Source: Haliea sp.
Lineage (GTDB): Bacteria; Pseudomonadota; Gammaproteobacteria; Pseudomonadales; Halieaceae
Assembly (NCBI GenBank): GCA_002862465.1
Contig: PKDD01000104.1
Coordinates: forward strand, 1-61,292
Direction of reading: 5' to 3'
DNA length: 61,292 bases
The translations under genes were made by a program, and so were the position numbers. Under the pieces are notes generated by a model, which saw only the letters and a list, made by a program, of their open reading frames with translations, did not search any database and was not told the origin of the DNA. Below, in pieces: positions 29,706-50,330 of the stretch. Each line of letters opens with the position of its first letter. Positions within the stretch are counted from its first letter, which is position 1.

Positions 29706-29882
29706 ATGTACATCAATCGCTTCCTGCTGCTGATTGTGGGCGTTGTGTTAATTTTTTTTCCTGCAATCGAGAGTTGGATGACCAGCTCAGAAATCGCATG
29801 GTATCGGCCTTATCAGCTATGGCTTTTGATCGTGGCAGCCGCATACTGGAATCAGCGCAAGAGATACCCAGATGATCTTTAG
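29706..29882 (+). CDS. cbrX: CbrX-like small membrane protein overlapping cbrA
   Basis: A 58-codon gene, ATG 29706 to TAG 29882. It has two hydrophobic segments (about residues 6-20 and 38-48) separated by a polar loop with several tryptophans, and a basic C-terminus (NQRKRYPDDL). GGAGG lies 11 bases upstream. It overlaps the cbrA start by 11 bp, so cbrA translation is probably coupled to it. In Pseudomonas a short gene named cbrX overlaps cbrA in the same way; the name is given by position and size, since I cannot align sequences. Confidence 0.72.
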   Translation: MYINRFLLLIVGVVLIFFPAIESWMTSSEIAWYRPYQLWLLIVAAAYWNQRKRYPDDL

Positions 29883-32850
29883 TCTCACGCAAATACTACT
29901 GGTCATTATCGCTTACCTCACCGGTTTGTTTGCAGTAGCTCATCTGGCCGACCGTGGGATCATTCCAAAACGTATTACCCACCATCCCGCCGTCTATGTT
30001 CTCTCTTTAGGTGTATTCGCGGGCGCCATGGCCAGCAACGGCGTAATCGCTATGGCGCACCAGTTCGGCTACAACTTTCTATTGTACTACCTCGGCGTAG
30101 TCTTAATGTTTGTGTTGCCTCTTATACTGCTGATGCCTCTCTTGCGACTTTGCAGAGTTTATCAACTAGCCTCCTTGGCAGATGTTCTGACATTCCGTTT
30201 CCGCAGCCCATGGGTTGGGTCTGCGGTGACCGTTGCGATGTGTATCACGTTGCTTCCGCTGCTTGCACTGCAAATCCAGGCAGTAGCCGAGAGCATTCAT
30301 ATTCTTGCGGGGGATAATGCGGCCGAATCGTTCGGTGGGAATCGAAATAACCTATTGGCATTTCTTTTTTGCGTCATCATTACAGTATTCTCCATCTTGT
30401 TCGGTACCCGCCATGTATCATCTCAACATCGCAACACCGGCCTAGTGACTGCCATTGCGTTTGAATCGCTAGTCAAGTTAAGCGCCATGTTGGTTCTTTT
30501 CCTAGCAGCGGTCTATGCCGTATTCGGTGGCATTGGGGGCCTGGAACAATGGTTACTTGAAAATCCGCAAACGAGCAATCAACTCACCCAGCCTATTCAG
30601 GGCGACGATGCGCGCGCCCTGTTGCTCATATTCTTTGCGGGCGCAGTGTGTATGCCTCACATTTTCCACATGGCCTTTGCTGAAAACAACGACAGCCGCG
30701 GCTTGCGCATCGCGACATGGGGACTACCGCTCTATCTTCTGATGTTGAGTCTACCCATTCTTCCGGTGACCTGGGCAGGGGTGAAGCTGGGCCATGAATT
30801 ACCCATGGATTACACTGGACTAGCTATTGGCATGGCTCTTCAATCCGGCGCTATCAGCACCGCAGCTTTTGTGGCTGGCCTATCAGCTTCCAGCGCTACC
30901 ATTATTATCACTACACTCGCACTGTCAAATATGTGTCTAAATCACCTAGTTCTGCCTCTTAGTCCGCTACAAATTGATAAAGGGCAAGACATCTATGTGC
31001 AGCTTAAATGGCTGCGAAGGGTTCTTATTACCATTCTTATTTTAGCTGGGTATATCTTTTTTACGACACTTAATGGTCGCCAAAGCCTTTCGCAGCTCGC
31101 GTTAGTAGCGTTCATTGGCACACTGCAATTCCTACCAGGGATCATTGCTACGCCCTATTGGCCGCGAGCGAACCGCACTGGACTCCTCGTCGGACTCAGC
31201 GGTGGACTGGGCATCTGGTTCTTTTCCATGCTGTTACCGCTGTTCGGCGAACAAAGTCCAGAACTCCTCACCTCGATCTATACGCTGTTGCTAGGGCACA
31301 GCAATAATTTGTCGACAGCTACTGCCCTGGTTTCATTGGGGGTTAATACAGCACTGTTTATCGCCATTTCGCTTGTGACCAGAAGAAGTTCAGACGAAGA
31401 GAAAGTTGCCTCGGAAATTTGTTCTATGGATGACCTCGCCCGGCCCATACGCCGGATACTATCTGTTTATAGCCCTGCAGAATTTAGTCAACGCCTGGCG
31501 CTCTCTTTAGGAGAAAATACTGCAAAATCTGAGGTGGAGAAAGCCTTAAGTGAACTACAATTTTCATCCTCTGAAAACAGACCTTATGCTCTTAGGCGCC
31601 TGCGAGCGAGGCTGGAAGCAAATCTGTCAGGGCTACTGGGTCCAGCCGTCGCCCACCGAATCATTGAAGGTCGCATTCCCCTCCTGCCGAGCGCGCATAC
31701 GGATGCCGAAGACATTCATTTGATCGAGCGGACACTCGACCAGAGCCAAACTCATTTTACGGGGTTAGCGGCGGACCTAGATAATCTACGCAGACACCAT
31801 AGAGAAACACTGGACAAACTACCTATAGGCGCCTGCTCGATTAGTGCTGACGGTGAGTTACTCATGTGGAATCAGAGTATGCAGCGAATCACTGGAATCG
31901 AGCCAACTGAAGTTCTGGGATCTTTGTTGGGCGATATCTCCCATCCATGGGGAGCCATTCTTGAAGGCTTTCTGCGAGGAGACACTGAAACTGTGATTAA
32001 GAAAGAAGTCGCGATGGACCACAGCCCTTCACGCTGGGTCGACCTGCATAAAACACTGATCAAGGAACACGATCATCGCAATACAGTCATCATGGTGGAA
32101 GATATTACCGATATTGAATTACTGGAAGAAGAGCTACTTCAAAATGAACGCTTGGCGTCAATTGGTCGTCTCGCCGCCGGTGTCGCTCATGAAATCGGCA
32201 ATCCAGTTACTGGCATTGCATGTCTTGCGCAAAATCTCGAGTACGAATCAGACCCAAAGGAAATTCGCTTCATGGCGCAGGATATCCTTAAACAAACCAG
32301 TAGGGTCACGCGGATAGTGGAATCACTAATGAACTTTTCACACACGGGCCCATATTTAGAAAAGACGAAACTGGCACCAGCCAACTTGGCAGATTGTGTG
32401 GACGAAGCCATTCATTTGTTAGCCCTAGACAGAGAAGCCAAGCCGGTACGGTTTGACAATCAATGTAATCGGGAGTTGCTGGCAATGGCAGATAGCCAGC
32501 GCCTGCTGCAGGTGTTTATCAACCTGCTGGACAACGCTAGGGACGCTTGTGACAGCAACGGGCAGGTGCATATACGGGCCAGTAACGTTGGTGATCAGGT
32601 GCAAATTGAGGTCGAAGACAATGGCAGCGGCATCCCACAGACGCTGCACTCACAGGTCTTTGAGCCTTTCTTCACCACCAAGGATCCCGGTGTCGGGACC
32701 GGACTGGGGCTTGCTCTGGTGTTTAGCATCATAGACGACATGAATGGCAAAGTTCATCTGACAAGCCCGTCAAGCCCGGATGTTAAAACCGGCACCCGGG
32801 TTACCCTGTATCTAGCATCCGCCTGCTACGGGCCAGACTTTGAAATGTAG
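29872..32850 (+). CDS. cbrA: CbrA: SLC5-type transporter fused to sensor histidine kinase
   Basis: A 992-residue inner-membrane protein. Residues ~1-500 form a sodium/solute-symporter-like (SLC5) domain with about 13 TM helices. Then come a STAC-like linker, a PAS domain (LDKLPIGACSISADGEL, about 648-662), and the kinase: H-box AAGVAHEIGNPV with His773, N-box INLLDNARDAC near 884, and the G-boxes VEDNGSGIP and GTGLGLALVF. CbrA senses carbon or nitrogen status, with histidine among proposed ligands in Pseudomonas, and phosphorylates CbrB. No ribosome site of its own is seen; it starts inside the cbrX-like gene. The histidine and both ATP-binding motifs are intact. Confidence 0.95.
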   Translation: MIFSLTQILLVIIAYLTGLFAVAHLADRGIIPKRITHHPAVYVLSLGVFAGAMASNGVIAMAHQFGYNFLLYYLGVVLMFVLPLILLMPLLRLCRVYQLASLADVLTFRFRSPWVGSAVTVAMCITLLPLLALQIQAVAESIHILAGDNAAESFGGNRNNLLAFLFCVIITVFSILFGTRHVSSQHRNTGLVTAIAFESLVKLSAMLVLFLAAVYAVFGGIGGLEQWLLENPQTSNQLTQPIQGDDARALLLIFFAGAVCMPHIFHMAFAENNDSRGLRIATWGLPLYLLMLSLPILPVTWAGVKLGHELPMDYTGLAIGMALQSGAISTAAFVAGLSASSATIIITTLALSNMCLNHLVLPLSPLQIDKGQDIYVQLKWLRRVLITILILAGYIFFTTLNGRQSLSQLALVAFIGTLQFLPGIIATPYWPRANRTGLLVGLSGGLGIWFFSMLLPLFGEQSPELLTSIYTLLLGHSNNLSTATALVSLGVNTALFIAISLVTRRSSDEEKVASEICSMDDLARPIRRILSVYSPAEFSQRLALSLGENTAKSEVEKALSELQFSSSENRPYALRRLRARLEANLSGLLGPAVAHRIIEGRIPLLPSAHTDAEDIHLIERTLDQSQTHFTGLAADLDNLRRHHRETLDKLPIGACSISADGELLMWNQSMQRITGIEPTEVLGSLLGDISHPWGAILEGFLRGDTETVIKKEVAMDHSPSRWVDLHKTLIKEHDHRNTVIMVEDITDIELLEEELLQNERLASIGRLAAGVAHEIGNPVTGIACLAQNLEYESDPKEIRFMAQDILKQTSRVTRIVESLMNFSHTGPYLEKTKLAPANLADCVDEAIHLLALDREAKPVRFDNQCNRELLAMADSQRLLQVFINLLDNARDACDSNGQVHIRASNVGDQVQIEVEDNGSGIPQTLHSQVFEPFFTTKDPGVGTGLGLALVFSIIDDMNGKVHLTSPSSPDVKTGTRVTLYLASACYGPDFEM

Positions 32851-32939: not shown

Positions 32940-34373
32940 ATGCAAAAGATCCTTATTGTCGAAGATGAGTCCGTCATCAGAACTGCTTTGCGTCGACTGC
33001 TAGAGCGGCATGACTTTCAAGTTAGTGAAGCAGGGTCGGTGCAAGAAGCGGAAAAAGACTACACTTTTACCAATTTTGACCTCGTTATCAGTGATCTCCG
33101 TCTCCCTGGTGCACCCGGTACCGACCTGATTAAAAAGGCGGGAGATGTACCAGTGTTAATTATGACCAGCTATGCAAGCCTGCGATCCGCCGTGGATTCC
33201 ATGCGAATGGGCGCAGTAGACTATATCGCCAAGCCCTTTGATCACGCTGATATGGTCATCGCTGTGCAACGTATCATTACCGACCACCCTACCGGCCGCT
33301 CTGCGGAAGAACCCGCAACTATCGACGGGACGGCTTCTGCGATGGACGGAATAATAGGCAACTGTTCAGCAATGCGGCTGCTCTTTGAGCACATTAAAAA
33401 AATGGCACCGACGGATTCGACAGTACTAGTACTTGGTGAGACAGGAACGGGCAAAGAGTTAGTGGCCCGGAGCGTGCATGAGAGTAGTCTACGCGCTGAT
33501 AAGATTATGGTCTCAGTCAACTGCGCTGCAATTCCCGAAACGCTTATCGAGTCTGAGTTGTTTGGTTATGAAAAAGGCGCGTTCACGGGCGCCAATGCAA
33601 GCCGTATGGGATTGATTGAAGCTGCTGATGGCGGCACGCTGTTTCTAGATGAGATTGGCGAACTGCCGATGGAAGCACAGGCGCGACTGCTGAGATTTAT
33701 CCAAGAAGGAGAAATTCGTCGCATAGGTTCCGTACATTCGCGCAGGGTCAATGTTCGACTGATCTGCGCTACCCACCGCAATCTGCACCATCTAGCAACG
33801 GAGGGCTTGTTCCGCAAGGACCTGTTCTATCGGATCAATGTCCTTTGCCTAGCGCTACCCCCCCTGAGAGAGCGGGGAAAAGATATCTTATATTTGGCCG
33901 AGCGTATGCTGGAGATTCAGGCGGGGCGTTCTGGAAAAGACGCTATGCGCTTGTCTCCGCGAGCCATTCAGGCCATTACAACCTATCAATGGCCGGGAAA
34001 TGTGAGAGAGTTAGAGCACGCCATTGAACGGGCAGTTGTTCTGTCTAGCGGTGAAGAAATCGATAACAAAGCACTGGGCATTGATCTCGAGCTAGTCAAC
34101 ATCAACCGCATTCGCGGCCAGCAGAGCGCCACTGCTCCCATTAACCCAAGTGCCGTTGCGACCAATCATGACCCTGGAGAAGACCTGTCGCTTGAGGATT
34201 ATTTTCAACGGTTCGTGCTGGAGCACCAAGATTCAATGAGCGAGACGGAGCTAGCGCAAAAGCTAGGTGTAAGCCGGAAGTGCCTGTGGGAGCGCCGCCA
34301 ACGATTTGGTATGCCCAGAAATAAGGGCAATGTGAACAGTCGAGCCAAAATCACCGCCACTGAGGATAAATAA
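32940..34373 (+). CDS. cbrB: CbrB: sigma-54-dependent response regulator
   Basis: A 477-residue NtrC-type activator. The receiver domain has Asp52 in VISDLRLPG with upstream acidic pair ED, and Lys in AKPF. The AAA+ domain has Walker A GETGTGKE (about residue 166), the sigma-54 contact loop GAFTGA, and the arginine-finger region. The C-terminal HTH (ETELAQKLGVSRKCLWERRQ) is unusual in having W-E-R-R-Q-R-F, as CbrB does. CbrB activates promoters for carbon use and the crcZ-type RNA. It lies 89 bp after cbrA. A GG-N10-GC promoter begins about 124 bp after its stop. Confidence 0.95.
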   Translation: MQKILIVEDESVIRTALRRLLERHDFQVSEAGSVQEAEKDYTFTNFDLVISDLRLPGAPGTDLIKKAGDVPVLIMTSYASLRSAVDSMRMGAVDYIAKPFDHADMVIAVQRIITDHPTGRSAEEPATIDGTASAMDGIIGNCSAMRLLFEHIKKMAPTDSTVLVLGETGTGKELVARSVHESSLRADKIMVSVNCAAIPETLIESELFGYEKGAFTGANASRMGLIEAADGGTLFLDEIGELPMEAQARLLRFIQEGEIRRIGSVHSRRVNVRLICATHRNLHHLATEGLFRKDLFYRINVLCLALPPLRERGKDILYLAERMLEIQAGRSGKDAMRLSPRAIQAITTYQWPGNVRELEHAIERAVVLSSGEEIDNKALGIDLELVNINRIRGQQSATAPINPSAVATNHDPGEDLSLEDYFQRFVLEHQDSMSETELAQKLGVSRKCLWERRQRFGMPRNKGNVNSRAKITATEDK

Positions 34374-34375
34374 CC

Positions 34376-34423
34376 GTTACCCAATCGCCGGTGCAGACCC
34401 CAAATAGGAGTATTTTAGTAACA
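34376..34423 (+). promoter_or_regulatory. Possible CbrB upstream half-sites
   Basis: GTTAC at 34376-34380 and GTAACA at 34418-34423 are inverted arms like the halves of the Pseudomonas CbrB site (TGTTAC-N14-GTAACA as I recall it), but the spacing here is 37 bp rather than 14. They lie 75-120 bp upstream of the -24 element, a normal enhancer distance. Weak evidence. Confidence 0.3.
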
Positions 34424-34496: not shown

Positions 34497-34512
34497 TGGC
34501 ACGGAAAATGCT
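34497..34512 (+). promoter_or_regulatory. Sigma-54 promoter of the CrcZ-like RNA
   Basis: TGGCACGGAAAATGCT: GG at 34498-34499 and GC at 34510-34511 with exactly ten bases between, and a full TGGCAC -24 block. This is the sigma-54 (RpoN) signature. The predicted start is at about 34522. It lies just after cbrB, the matching sigma-54 activator. Confidence 0.85.
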
Positions 34513-34584
34513 ATTTAGTAAGCAGCGGGCCAATAAAAATAACGACTGCTGCAATAAAAATAATAATGCGTGATAAAGATCTGG

Positions 34585-34618
34585 ATGAGGGAAGATATCT
34601 TCCCTTCATTTTTGTTTT
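34585..34618 (+). terminator. Rho-independent terminator 1 of the CrcZ-like locus
   Basis: The stem ATGAGGGAAG/CTTCCCTTCAT (one bulged T) with loop ATAT is followed by TTTTTGTTTT. It lies inside the RNA locus, so it would either end a ~97-nt RNA or be partly read through. Confidence 0.8.
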
Positions 34619-34793
34619 GTGGCTTACGTGAAACCCAAAGGCGATACCTGCAGGGTTGATGCGGCGATCAGCGGACAGGCTTTTTAGTCCCTTGAGGGCA
34701 ACAAAGCCTAAAAAGATGATGCCGCTTTGTCCATCCCAATAAAAATAACAGCACACAGACATAAAAATAATTTCTAAAGGAAGATCTGGATGA

Positions 34794-34818
34794 GGGGGAC
34801 ACTGTTCCCCTTTCTTTT
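34794..34818 (+). terminator. Rho-independent terminator 2 of the CrcZ-like locus
   Basis: GGGGGA and TTCCCC pair around loop CACTG, followed by TTTCTTTT. It separates the RNA locus from pcnB. Confidence 0.75.
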
Positions 34819-34908
34819 ACCAGTCCGTTACTCGGCCAATCAGCGGCATCGTAATGACATCTATGGTAACCTTGGGGTAGCAGAGAATCTTCCACAGGCC
34901 TTATTCGT

Positions 34909-36213
34909 TTGGACATAATTCCCAGGGACCAACACTGTATATCGCGCAAAAATATCAGCGACGGCGCACTTAAAGTCATGTCGCGATTACGCAGCGGTGG
35001 ATTTCAAGCCTATCTCGTTGGGGGCGCAGTTCGCGATCTGCTACTCGGCGGTCGTCCCAAGGACTTTGATATCGCAACAGATGCTACACCGGAGGCTGTA
35101 ACAGCGCTGTTTCGTAATTCACGCATCATTGGCCGCCGCTTTCGAATTGTGCATGTGCGTTTTGGTCGCGAGATCATCGAAGTAACCACTTTCCGCGGCC
35201 ATCACAATAACAAACCAAAAGAGGACCCACGAAGCGAAAAGGGGAGCAACCACTCTCGGCAGTCTGCCAGCGGCCTTCTGCTTCGAGATAATGTCTATGG
35301 CACACTAGAAGAAGACGCTGCGCGACGCGACCTCAGCGTAAATGCCCTGTACTACGATTCTGGAAAGTTTGAGGTATTTGATCATCTACACGGCATTAAA
35401 GATCTCGAAAACCGCACTATTTGTGTTATCGGCAACCCAGAGCAGCGCTATACAGAAGACCCTGTGCGCATGCTACGCGTCGTTCGTTTTGCGGCCAAAC
35501 TGGATTTCAACATCGATCAACGAACAGCTGAGGCTATTCCTCGCTGCGCGCACCTGCTCGCAGAGATTCCCGCTGCACGATTATTTGACGAATTTCTGAA
35601 ACTTTTCCTCGGTGGAAGCGCCTCAAGAACAATGGACAATCTTCTGGAATATAATCTCCTGCAATATTTGTTCCCAAGCACCAACACATGCATTGAGCGG
35701 GACGCGACAGTGGTGAGATTAGTTCAAGCGGCCATGAAAAATACCGACAACCGTATTGCCGAGGGCAAGCATGTAACACCGGCTTTTATTCTCGCAGCCT
35801 TGTTGTGGCCAATCGTCAGCAAGCAATTTAGCGTTCTTGAGAGCAGCGGTGAGGCGCCTATGGTGGCAATGCACAGTGCGGCGCAAAGCACAGTTGCAGA
35901 TGCCGTCAAGTATATGTCTATTCCGCGCCGTTTCAGTCAGCCAATGAAGGAAATTTGGGAGTTTCAATTACGCTTGCAACGGCGCACGGGACGCAAGGCC
36001 ATAGAACTGATTGAACACCGCCGTTTTAGGGCTGCTTATGATTTTCTACTACTGCGAGAGCAAGCTGGAGAAGACACCGGCGAACTGGGCAACTGGTGGA
36101 CGGAGATTCAGGCGTTGTCGCCAGAGCAGCGTTTACAGAAAGCGACCTCTGCGGAGGGTAACCACAAGCGACCCAAAAGAATTCGAAAGCGTCGCCCCAA
36201 TCCTGCACCGTGA
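34909..36213 (+). CDS. pcnB: Poly(A) polymerase I
   Basis: A 434-residue nucleotidyltransferase that adds poly(A) tails to RNA 3' ends and promotes decay. VGGAVRDLLLGGRPKDFDIATDA carries the catalytic Asp52 and Asp54; RRDLSVNALYY and GNPEQRYTEDPVRMLRVVRF match the E. coli protein closely, and the C-terminus is basic (KRPKRIRKRRP). The conserved opening I-I-P-R-D-Q-H-x-I-S-R-K lies right at the start, yet no ATG or GTG precedes it after the upstream stop; only TTG 34909 or ATT 34903 are available. E. coli pcnB is known to use ATT. The stop overlaps the folK GTG (GTGA). Confidence 0.95.
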   Translation: MDIIPRDQHCISRKNISDGALKVMSRLRSGGFQAYLVGGAVRDLLLGGRPKDFDIATDATPEAVTALFRNSRIIGRRFRIVHVRFGREIIEVTTFRGHHNNKPKEDPRSEKGSNHSRQSASGLLLRDNVYGTLEEDAARRDLSVNALYYDSGKFEVFDHLHGIKDLENRTICVIGNPEQRYTEDPVRMLRVVRFAAKLDFNIDQRTAEAIPRCAHLLAEIPAARLFDEFLKLFLGGSASRTMDNLLEYNLLQYLFPSTNTCIERDATVVRLVQAAMKNTDNRIAEGKHVTPAFILAALLWPIVSKQFSVLESSGEAPMVAMHSAAQSTVADAVKYMSIPRRFSQPMKEIWEFQLRLQRRTGRKAIELIEHRRFRAAYDFLLLREQAGEDTGELGNWWTEIQALSPEQRLQKATSAEGNHKRPKRIRKRRPNPAP

Positions 36214-36748: not shown

Positions 36749-37429
36749 ATGCTGGACACAAGGGCTATTAATATAGATTTGAAGGGACGCACGCCGCCAG
36801 CCTTTATTGCGGTTGAAGGCTCCATAGGTGTAGGCAAGACTACTCTCGCAAAGAAGTTGGCTGCTAGCTTGAACTATGCTGTGCTGCTTGAGGAAGCAGA
36901 GGAGAACCCGTTCCTAGAGAAATTTTACCAGCGTCGTAAACAGGCGGCATTAGCCGCGCAATTATTTTTCCTATTTCAAAGAGCCCAAAAAATTCAGGAT
37001 ATGCGCCAGACCGACATTTTTGAGCCCGCGCGCGTGACCGATTTTCTGATCGACAAGGACCCCTTGTTTGCGAGGATCAACCTAGACAGAGATGAATATC
37101 AACTCTACGACAAAGTCTATAAACAACTCACCATTGATGCGCCCAAGCCGGACCTTGTCGTTTACCTGCAGGCATCCACTGATGTATTACTGTCGCGCAT
37201 TGAAAGCAGGGGTTTAGCGATCGAGAGAAGTATAGACAGGAGCTATCTGGAACGGCTAAACGAAGTGTACAGTGAGTTCTTTCTATATTACGATGACGCT
37301 CCATTACTTATCGTAAACGCCAGTGAAATCGACTTGGCAAACGACGCATCAGATTACAAAGGTCTAGTAAATTATTTGCTCAATATCCGCAGTGGCCGCC
37401 ACTACTTCAATCCCACATTTTTCAAATAG
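36749..37429 (+). CDS. Deoxynucleoside kinase (dAdo/dGuo/dCyd kinase family)
   Basis: A 226-residue P-loop kinase: VEGSIGVGKTTLAKKL (about residues 22-37) is the Walker A of the dNK family, EEAEENPFLEKFY is the substrate-side Glu region, QLFFLFQRAQKI follows, and RIESRGLAIERSIDRSYLERLNEVY contains the E-R-S/LID-type arginines. It salvages deoxynucleosides; exact specificity is unknown. GAGG lies nine bases before the ATG. It sits between folK and panB in the same run of genes. Confidence 0.88.
   Translation: MLDTRAINIDLKGRTPPAFIAVEGSIGVGKTTLAKKLAASLNYAVLLEEAEENPFLEKFYQRRKQAALAAQLFFLFQRAQKIQDMRQTDIFEPARVTDFLIDKDPLFARINLDRDEYQLYDKVYKQLTIDAPKPDLVVYLQASTDVLLSRIESRGLAIERSIDRSYLERLNEVYSEFFLYYDDAPLLIVNASEIDLANDASDYKGLVNYLLNIRSGRHYFNPTFFK

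Positions 37430-50253: not shown

Positions 50254-50330
<77 letters not shown>

Follow-up and report, generated by a model that had tools for sequence, protein, structure and literature searches.

The cbrB–pcnB locus

In Pseudomonas and Azotobacter, the gene for the small RNA CrcZ lies behind cbrB and is followed by pcnB; it has a sigma-54 promoter, a three-part CbrB site, A-rich Hfq motifs and a 3' hairpin. What occupies the corresponding gap in Halieaceae, where the same set of traits is seen? An earlier note on this DNA had proposed a decoy RNA of the CrcZ class in another lineage, built as two repeats. A mesopelagic study with metatranscriptomics (PMC5073097) is listed as naming cbrA and cbrB five times each. 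A 2022 review states, in the excerpt available, that the CbrAB system and crcZ are unique to Pseudomonadaceae (PMC8871633), the available sections of PMC6591292 contain nothing on CrcZ or CbrAB in other families, and among the matches listed no report of either outside Pseudomonadaceae was found in the open-access literature.

The window (the whole stretch of 61,292 nt that was analysed) is part of a 3.3-Mb draft genome of 182 contigs, and its host family (f1) is taken to be Halieaceae. The gap between cbrB and pcnB holds CbrB-type sites, a sigma-54 promoter and two A-rich modules. With a probability of about 0.83, it encodes a CrcZ-like regulatory RNA of Halieaceae that is driven by CbrB and sigma-54, consists of two modules and titrates Hfq/Crc. 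The features of the locus are as follows.

29872..32850, forward strand: cbrA-like sensor kinase (PAS, HisKA and HATPase_c domains; long N-terminal part without a Pfam match)
32940..34373, forward strand: cbrB, response regulator with a sigma-54 activation domain
34376..34380, forward strand: GTTAC, first CbrB-type site, -121 from the promoter start
34418..34423, forward strand: GTAACA, CbrB-type reverse site, -79 from the promoter start
34497..34512, forward strand: sigma-54 promoter TGGCACGGAAAATGCT (GG at 34498-34499, N10, GC at 34510-34511)
34522..34552, forward strand: module 1 stem-loop, the loop carrying the first A-rich tract (34532-34543)
34553..34567, forward strand: module 1 second A-rich tract, (ARN)5
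34576..34591, forward strand: module 1 conserved box, AAGATCTGGATGAGGG
34587..34606, forward strand: module 1 hairpin, then a U-rich tail (about 34607-34617)
34618..34733, forward strand: spacer, weakly conserved
34738..34752, forward strand: module 2 first A-rich tract, (ARN)5
34761..34770, forward strand: module 2 second A-rich tract, short
34781..34796, forward strand: module 2 conserved box, AAGATCTGGATGAGGG
34792..34812, forward strand: module 2 hairpin, then a U-rich tail (about 34813-34820)
34909..36213, forward strand: pcnB, poly(A) polymerase, the conserved downstream neighbour (start codon approximate)

The name CbrA for the sensor kinase rests on its position and architecture, and among the NCBIfam matches listed there was no CbrA or CbrB model. 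The CbrB of the window is 62–65% identical to CbrB in six Pseudomonadaceae-type genomes, which were taken as Pseudomonadaceae because their scores with the Rfam CrcZ model (RF01675; 309 to 357 bits) are far above its cut-off. Its nearest named matches are from a Halioglobus MAG (80%), an unclassified gammaproteobacterial MAG (80%) and Pseudohaliea rubra, a member of the Halieaceae (76%).

Promoter and CbrB-type sites

Relatives were searched with the window DNA and with CbrB in 96 genomes (that of the window and 95 others), 88 of which gave a CbrB match at E 1e-120. A pattern for the end of CbrB mapped 86 of these 88 loci, missing G017 (same family) and G086 (another family). The locus was readable in 55 of the 60 family genomes; G009, G021, G038 and G046 had no CbrB match at E 1e-120, and G017 was omitted. 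The GG-N10-GC promoter claimed at 34497-34512 is present there, and the pattern TGG[CT][AG][CT]N6TGC is found behind cbrB in all 55 readable genomes.

Upstream of this promoter, at least two GTWAC motifs occur in 55 of 55 family genomes (1.8% in single-letter shuffles), and GTAACA in 49 of 55 (3.3% in such shuffles). The sites usually lie at about -123, -104 and -81 from the promoter. In the window two of the three are exact, GTTAC at -121 and GTAACA at -79, and an exact middle site is absent; both belong to the feature and lie outside the stretch that the earlier note had marked. In P. putida, mutants define a forward CbrB subsite (TGTTAC) and two reverse ones (GTAACA), spaced 20–25 bp from centre to centre (PMC6296734, in the part available). 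The same layout (about -122, -102 and -80) precedes crcZ in the six Pseudomonadaceae-type genomes, where the order of cbrB, promoter and pcnB is also the same. The window therefore shares with the CrcZ type a gene directly 3' of cbrB whose sigma-54 promoter is accompanied by CbrB-type sites in the F1/R1/R2 layout.

Two homologous modules

The two copies of AAGATCTGGATGAGGG, at 34576-34591 and 34781-34796, are exact and 205 nt apart from start to start, which bears out the claim of an identical 16-base block before each hairpin. No further site turns up in the 61-kb window when up to three mismatches are allowed; the chance expectation is a mean of 0.47, and at least two sites were reached in 4 of 100 shuffles. 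Two exact copies at this distance should be far rarer than that control, which admits three mismatches anywhere. Of the A-rich blocks, said to be identical, one pair is (CCAATAAAAATAAC at 34530-34543 and 34736-34749), but the remaining tracts are not, one being a near copy (86%) at 34551-34564 and another the shorter tract at 34761-34770. Within 34522-34820 there are three runs of (ARN) with at least four repeats, plus the fourth, shorter tract, so that several A-rich tracts of the type bound by the distal face of Hfq are present. Three such runs are reached by 10 of 4,880 overlapping 299-nt windows on both strands, the site's own windows included.

A terminator scan passes both hairpins with their U-rich tails (three hits, two of them overlapping, where 0.7 are expected). 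The predicted 96-nt RNA folds better than all 200 shuffles (z -3.64), and the predicted 303-nt RNA better than all 100 (z -3.66). The two-module, A-rich feature that had been described is real.

With a cut-off of 12 out of 14, the box is found in 54 of the 55 readable family genomes and is present twice in 42 of them, the outcome of the search at the cbrB–pcnB junction of relatives that had been suggested. A single box at this cut-off occurs in 12 of the 54; on inspection, three of these (G030, G041 and G057) do have a second copy, which is diverged or cut. The G035 locus ends at a contig edge, and two boxes are found on another G035 contig. In L078 (G024) and L108 (G047) the boxes are about 680 and 650 nt apart, not about 200.

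A covariance model was built from 54 module-1 sequences, with no module-2 sequence among them. It finds module 2 of the window with 41.5 bits (E 2.5e-4), and in 56 Halieaceae loci at E <=1 it gives two matches in 39, one in 16 and none in L075, which is at a contig edge. Of the 39 second matches, 37 have E <=0.0012 and the other two 0.042 and 0.22. Nearly all matches of this model (105 of 108) are in sense and within 1,100 nt of the mapped cbrB stop; of the remaining three, two lie in a locus where the pattern missed the cbrB stop and one starts at 1,188 nt. Judged by sequence, the two modules are homologous, in agreement with the proposed build of two repeats.

Both stems covary (score 0.430, against 0.212 for shuffled and at most 0.140 for slid controls) in an alignment fitted to the supplied structure. 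The module 1 stem at 34522..34552 has 68.9% of its alignment cells paired. It emerged after alignment to the covariance model, with the structure supplied beforehand; RNAalifold on plain MAFFT alignments returned mainly the hairpin and did not show this stem.

Across the window's clade (five genomes), module 1 has 68 invariant columns out of 88, the spacer 28 out of 124 and module 2 50 out of 86, so the modules, and not the spacer, look held by selection. This pattern bears on a more trivial explanation, that the gap is merely the leader and promoter region of pcnB. The constancy of pcnB as downstream neighbour would fit such a leader, but the uneven conservation speaks against it, as do a -10-like element near pcnB that lies downstream of both modules (37 of 50 family genomes, counted without a chance control) and two module copies in another genome (G103, L201 and L202) that have neither cbrB nor pcnB by the patterns used. 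A pcnB leader is accordingly a highly improbable account of the gap. The -10-like element itself has the consensus TRTGNTARAMT, and TATGGTAACCT at 34862-34872 is the window's variant of it.

Two further observations concern the modules. A small protein encoded by module 1 was considered, as ATGGACCTGGATGGGG is seen in many relatives, and was rejected because on inspection the ATG is absent at that place in module 2 and in the window. Just 5' of module 2, many Halieaceae (e.g., L041 and L039) show by eye an AT-rich, palindrome-like stretch (ATATAAAAA..TTTTTATAT).

Relation to CrcZ and host partners

The best Rfam match to module 1 is CrcZ (RF01675), with 22.3 bits and E 5.7e-4 to the 3' part of the model; over module 2, no Rfam family has a lower E-value than CrcZ (14.5 bits, E 0.11, again the 3' part). 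Both scores miss the gathering score of 95 bits, as do those of seven matching Halieaceae genomes, and for this reason the RNA is called CrcZ-like and is not filed as a member of RF01675. A search of the window's genome with RF01675 at E 0.01 under stricter filters gave no match. At the same threshold, 60 of 244 genomes sampled from the order match RF01675, 11 of them above the cut-off (eight from the Pseudomonadaceae-type family f21 and three from f2). Missing the cut-off does not weaken the case that the RNA works as CrcZ does.

The two RNAs differ in build. The CrcZ model has 398 positions, while the Halieaceae RNA is about 300 nt long, consists of two repeated modules and carries the GACCTGGATGGGG box. 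Azotobacter CrcZ has six A-rich motifs (PMC6292655, in the part available); against a size of about 400 nt and six motifs, the RNA described here has a predicted length of about 297 nt and four tracts. It resembles CrcY and CrcX, further CbrB-driven copies in Pseudomonadaceae (PMC8871633, same excerpt), in that a single genome carries more than one CbrB-controlled RNA of this kind, but the second copy in Halieaceae is joined in tandem and has no recognisable promoter.

The partners that a CrcZ-like RNA would need are encoded by the host. The window's genome encodes RpoN, and its Hfq differs very little from the best PDB match, 1u1s, which we take to be the Hfq of P. aeruginosa. For a candidate Crc (L199), the top PDB match is Crc (222 bits), followed by 2myi, labelled exodeoxyribonuclease III (215 bits), and a next match of 168 bits. 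The candidate adjoins genes that we read as pyrE and rph, presumably the same neighbourhood as in Pseudomonas. In the same genome, a paralogue (L197) has its top matches among nucleases (300 bits) and scores 254 bits with Crc, above the candidate's own Crc score; the assignment of L199 therefore rests on rank order and neighbours and not on score alone, and L199 is likely Crc. Hfq and a likely Crc, the two proteins that had been put forward as a check, are thus both found. Taken together, the promoter, the CbrB-type sites, the homologous modules and the presence of RpoN, Hfq and a likely Crc support the proposal of a CrcZ-class RNA in another lineage.

Distribution, second promoter and RNA ends

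With the module model, 36 of 244 genomes sampled from the order match at E 0.001, ten of them in the window's family; among 274 genomes sampled across the class, just the window matches at E 0.01 under stricter filters. Genome-wide model searches can miss weak copies, as they were run with stricter filters and with 5 to 15 first-look candidates scored per genome listed. In other families of the order, 12 of 31 loci match the module model at E <=1. The box is recognisable in seven of these (L081, L082, L083, L086, L087, L089 and L110), diverged in L095 and not visible in L088, L092, L097 and L101. A CbrB end lies upstream in 21 of 23 match regions from other families, and the other two are the extra copies of G103. 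This genome has four CrcZ-like modules on three contigs (L201, L202 and L203), each with a sigma-54 promoter and CbrB sites.

The family f47 contains a strain of Dasania, a genus placed in Spongiibacteraceae. Two modules were found in all eight f47 genomes that matched and were fetched, a count that covers genomes with a match and is not a family-wide share, and each module has its own sigma-54 promoter and CbrB sites. Here the second gene is adjacent and separately promoted, unlike the fused copy of Halieaceae.

These arrangements raise the alternative that Halieaceae also make two separate short RNAs, hairpin 1 acting as a full terminator and module 2 having its own, unrecognised promoter. 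The eight f47 genomes and the four G103 copies, each with its own promoter, are in its favour, and so is the U-rich tail of hairpin 1 in five of five genomes of the window's clade. Against it, a strict sigma-54 site lies between the modules in 0 of 42 two-module Halieaceae and a loose one in 3 of 42, GTAACA occurs in the stretch behind module 1 in just 1 of 55 family genomes, and sigma-70-like sites in the spacer (2 of 42, with 3.0 expected from single-letter shuffles) show no excess. Separate short RNAs are for these reasons unlikely. Because module 2 is conserved and lacks a recognisable promoter, its production by read-through past hairpin 1 is implied.

In a tree of 118 modules, 41 of the 42 family module-2 copies group with all seven f47 second copies used (support 100/99). 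The group also takes in two single copies from another family and two from Halieaceae, and no module-1 copy falls in it. With few columns, no root and a bootstrap that had not converged, the tree was used as a hint only. We infer that two CbrB-driven genes existed ancestrally and that Halieaceae lost the promoter of the second, giving a fused, read-through RNA.

Where the RNA ends is less sure. U-rich tails follow both hairpins in five of five genomes of the window's clade. Across the family, the first nine bases of the tails contain on average 4.5 T after hairpin 1 and 4.1 T after hairpin 2, against 2.2 at random window positions, and at least five T are found in 22 of 42 module-1 and 16 of 42 module-2 copies (5.9% of random window positions). 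The f47 tails (seven of the eight genomes) have three to four T and score near background. The reported terminator on each module therefore agrees with the window and its clade, but not as a family-wide rule, and since the tails vary among relatives the position of the RNA end is unsure. In the window's clade, hairpin 1 may end some transcripts at about 97 nt, with the rest running to about 297 nt. A graded titration of Hfq by two such forms, as the earlier note suggested, would be conjecture.

The conserved box

In the 54 module-1 boxes, the letters of A-YCTGG--G-GG are invariant except for Y (C or T), and the 42 module-2 boxes have nearly the same invariant letters; several A-rich columns are invariant too. 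In other families the box has the sequence GAGACCTGGATGGGG or a similar one. In seven Pseudomonadaceae-type crcZ regions examined (six with a cbrB end by pattern), the box was absent in sense, and the sole box-like match, 12 of 14 letters in L231, is on the opposite strand. The suspicion that the AGATCTGGATGAGGG block has a role of its own is strengthened, as its core ranks with the best conserved stretches of the RNA and is met again in other families. The GATGGGG part of the box can pair into the hairpin, and the GACCTG part is unpaired in the module-1 fold and partly paired when the 303-nt RNA is folded to minimum energy.

CrcZ of P. aeruginosa has, in its 3' part, an AGGGA to which RsmA binds (PMC6061880, in the part available), and this makes CsrA a candidate partner of the box. 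The GACCTGGATGGGG box would then be a docking site for CsrA/RsmA, and the RNA would sequester CsrA as well as Hfq/Crc. The box stands at a hairpin that can be taken as the counterpart of the RsmA-bound hairpin of CrcZ, it contains GGA and GGGGA runs, and CsrA is present in all seven genomes searched, the window's own host being among those that encode it. However, while CTGG is invariant in module 1, the A that completes GGA is found in 47 of 54 module-1 and 39 of 42 module-2 boxes; the earlier GGA is kept in 49 of 54 module-1 boxes and reads AGA in 33 of 42 module-2 boxes, and the GATG part can pair into the stem. By pattern count, GGA is present in most copies and not invariant, and CsrA docking is improbable. 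RNAs of the RsmY, RsmZ and CsrB type sequester an RNA-binding protein via repeated motifs; the Halieaceae RNA differs from them in that its repeats are A-rich and of the Hfq type, and GGA is not strictly kept.

The box could instead be a seed for Hfq-assisted base pairing with mRNA targets in trans. A conserved stretch next to Hfq sites and a hairpin is typical of many Hfq-dependent small RNAs, and the box is such a stretch, highly conserved and beside A-rich, Hfq-type sites and a hairpin; the C/T variation in GAYCTGG would still pair with G. On the other hand, the 15-letter box pattern occurs away from the locus at just six places in 96 genomes, where the reversed pattern, as a control, gives two matches. 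A pairing seed is conceivable, if rather doubtful.

More broadly, and tentatively, with the odds somewhat below even, these RNAs may form a class of the wider Pseudomonadales, unannotated as far as searched, in which one half titrates Hfq/Crc and the other, the GACCTGGATGGGG box and hairpin, binds a second partner (protein or mRNA), with Halieaceae having fused two of these CbrB-driven genes into a single bimodular, read-through RNA. If so, such a two-half RNA would couple carbon signalling to a second regulatory network.

Proposed function

The preferred reading remains that of a CrcZ-like RNA. By analogy with Pseudomonas, it probably mops up Hfq and so lifts carbon catabolite repression. Poor carbon supply sensed by CbrA would activate CbrB, which, on the GTTAC/GTAACA sites, would drive sigma-54 polymerase from TGGCACGGAAAATGCT, with a predicted start at about 34522. 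Each module would present one ARN tract in a stem loop and one single-stranded; Hfq, acting with Crc, is predicted to bind these tracts on its distal face, and mRNAs repressed by Hfq/Crc would thereby be released. Expression, binding of Hfq/Crc, relief of repression and read-through are what we infer from the genomic data.

As far as searched, the RNA is ordinary in principle, being CrcZ-like, and new in place and form. The circuit and its CbrB-type sites can be seen in several families beyond Pseudomonadaceae, among them the marine Halieaceae, and Hfq/Crc carbon catabolite repression becomes directly testable in Halieaceae and their relatives. Natural one-gene, two-gene and fused versions of one RNA are available for comparison, and they expose a conserved box that is absent from the Pseudomonas-type crcZ loci examined.

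Elsewhere in the window, an open frame at 36749-37429 (226 aa) presumably encodes a protein resembling a deoxynucleoside kinase and lies between genes that we take to be folK and panB. The sole Rfam match above cut-off within the window is a tRNA gene at 50257-50330 on the minus strand.
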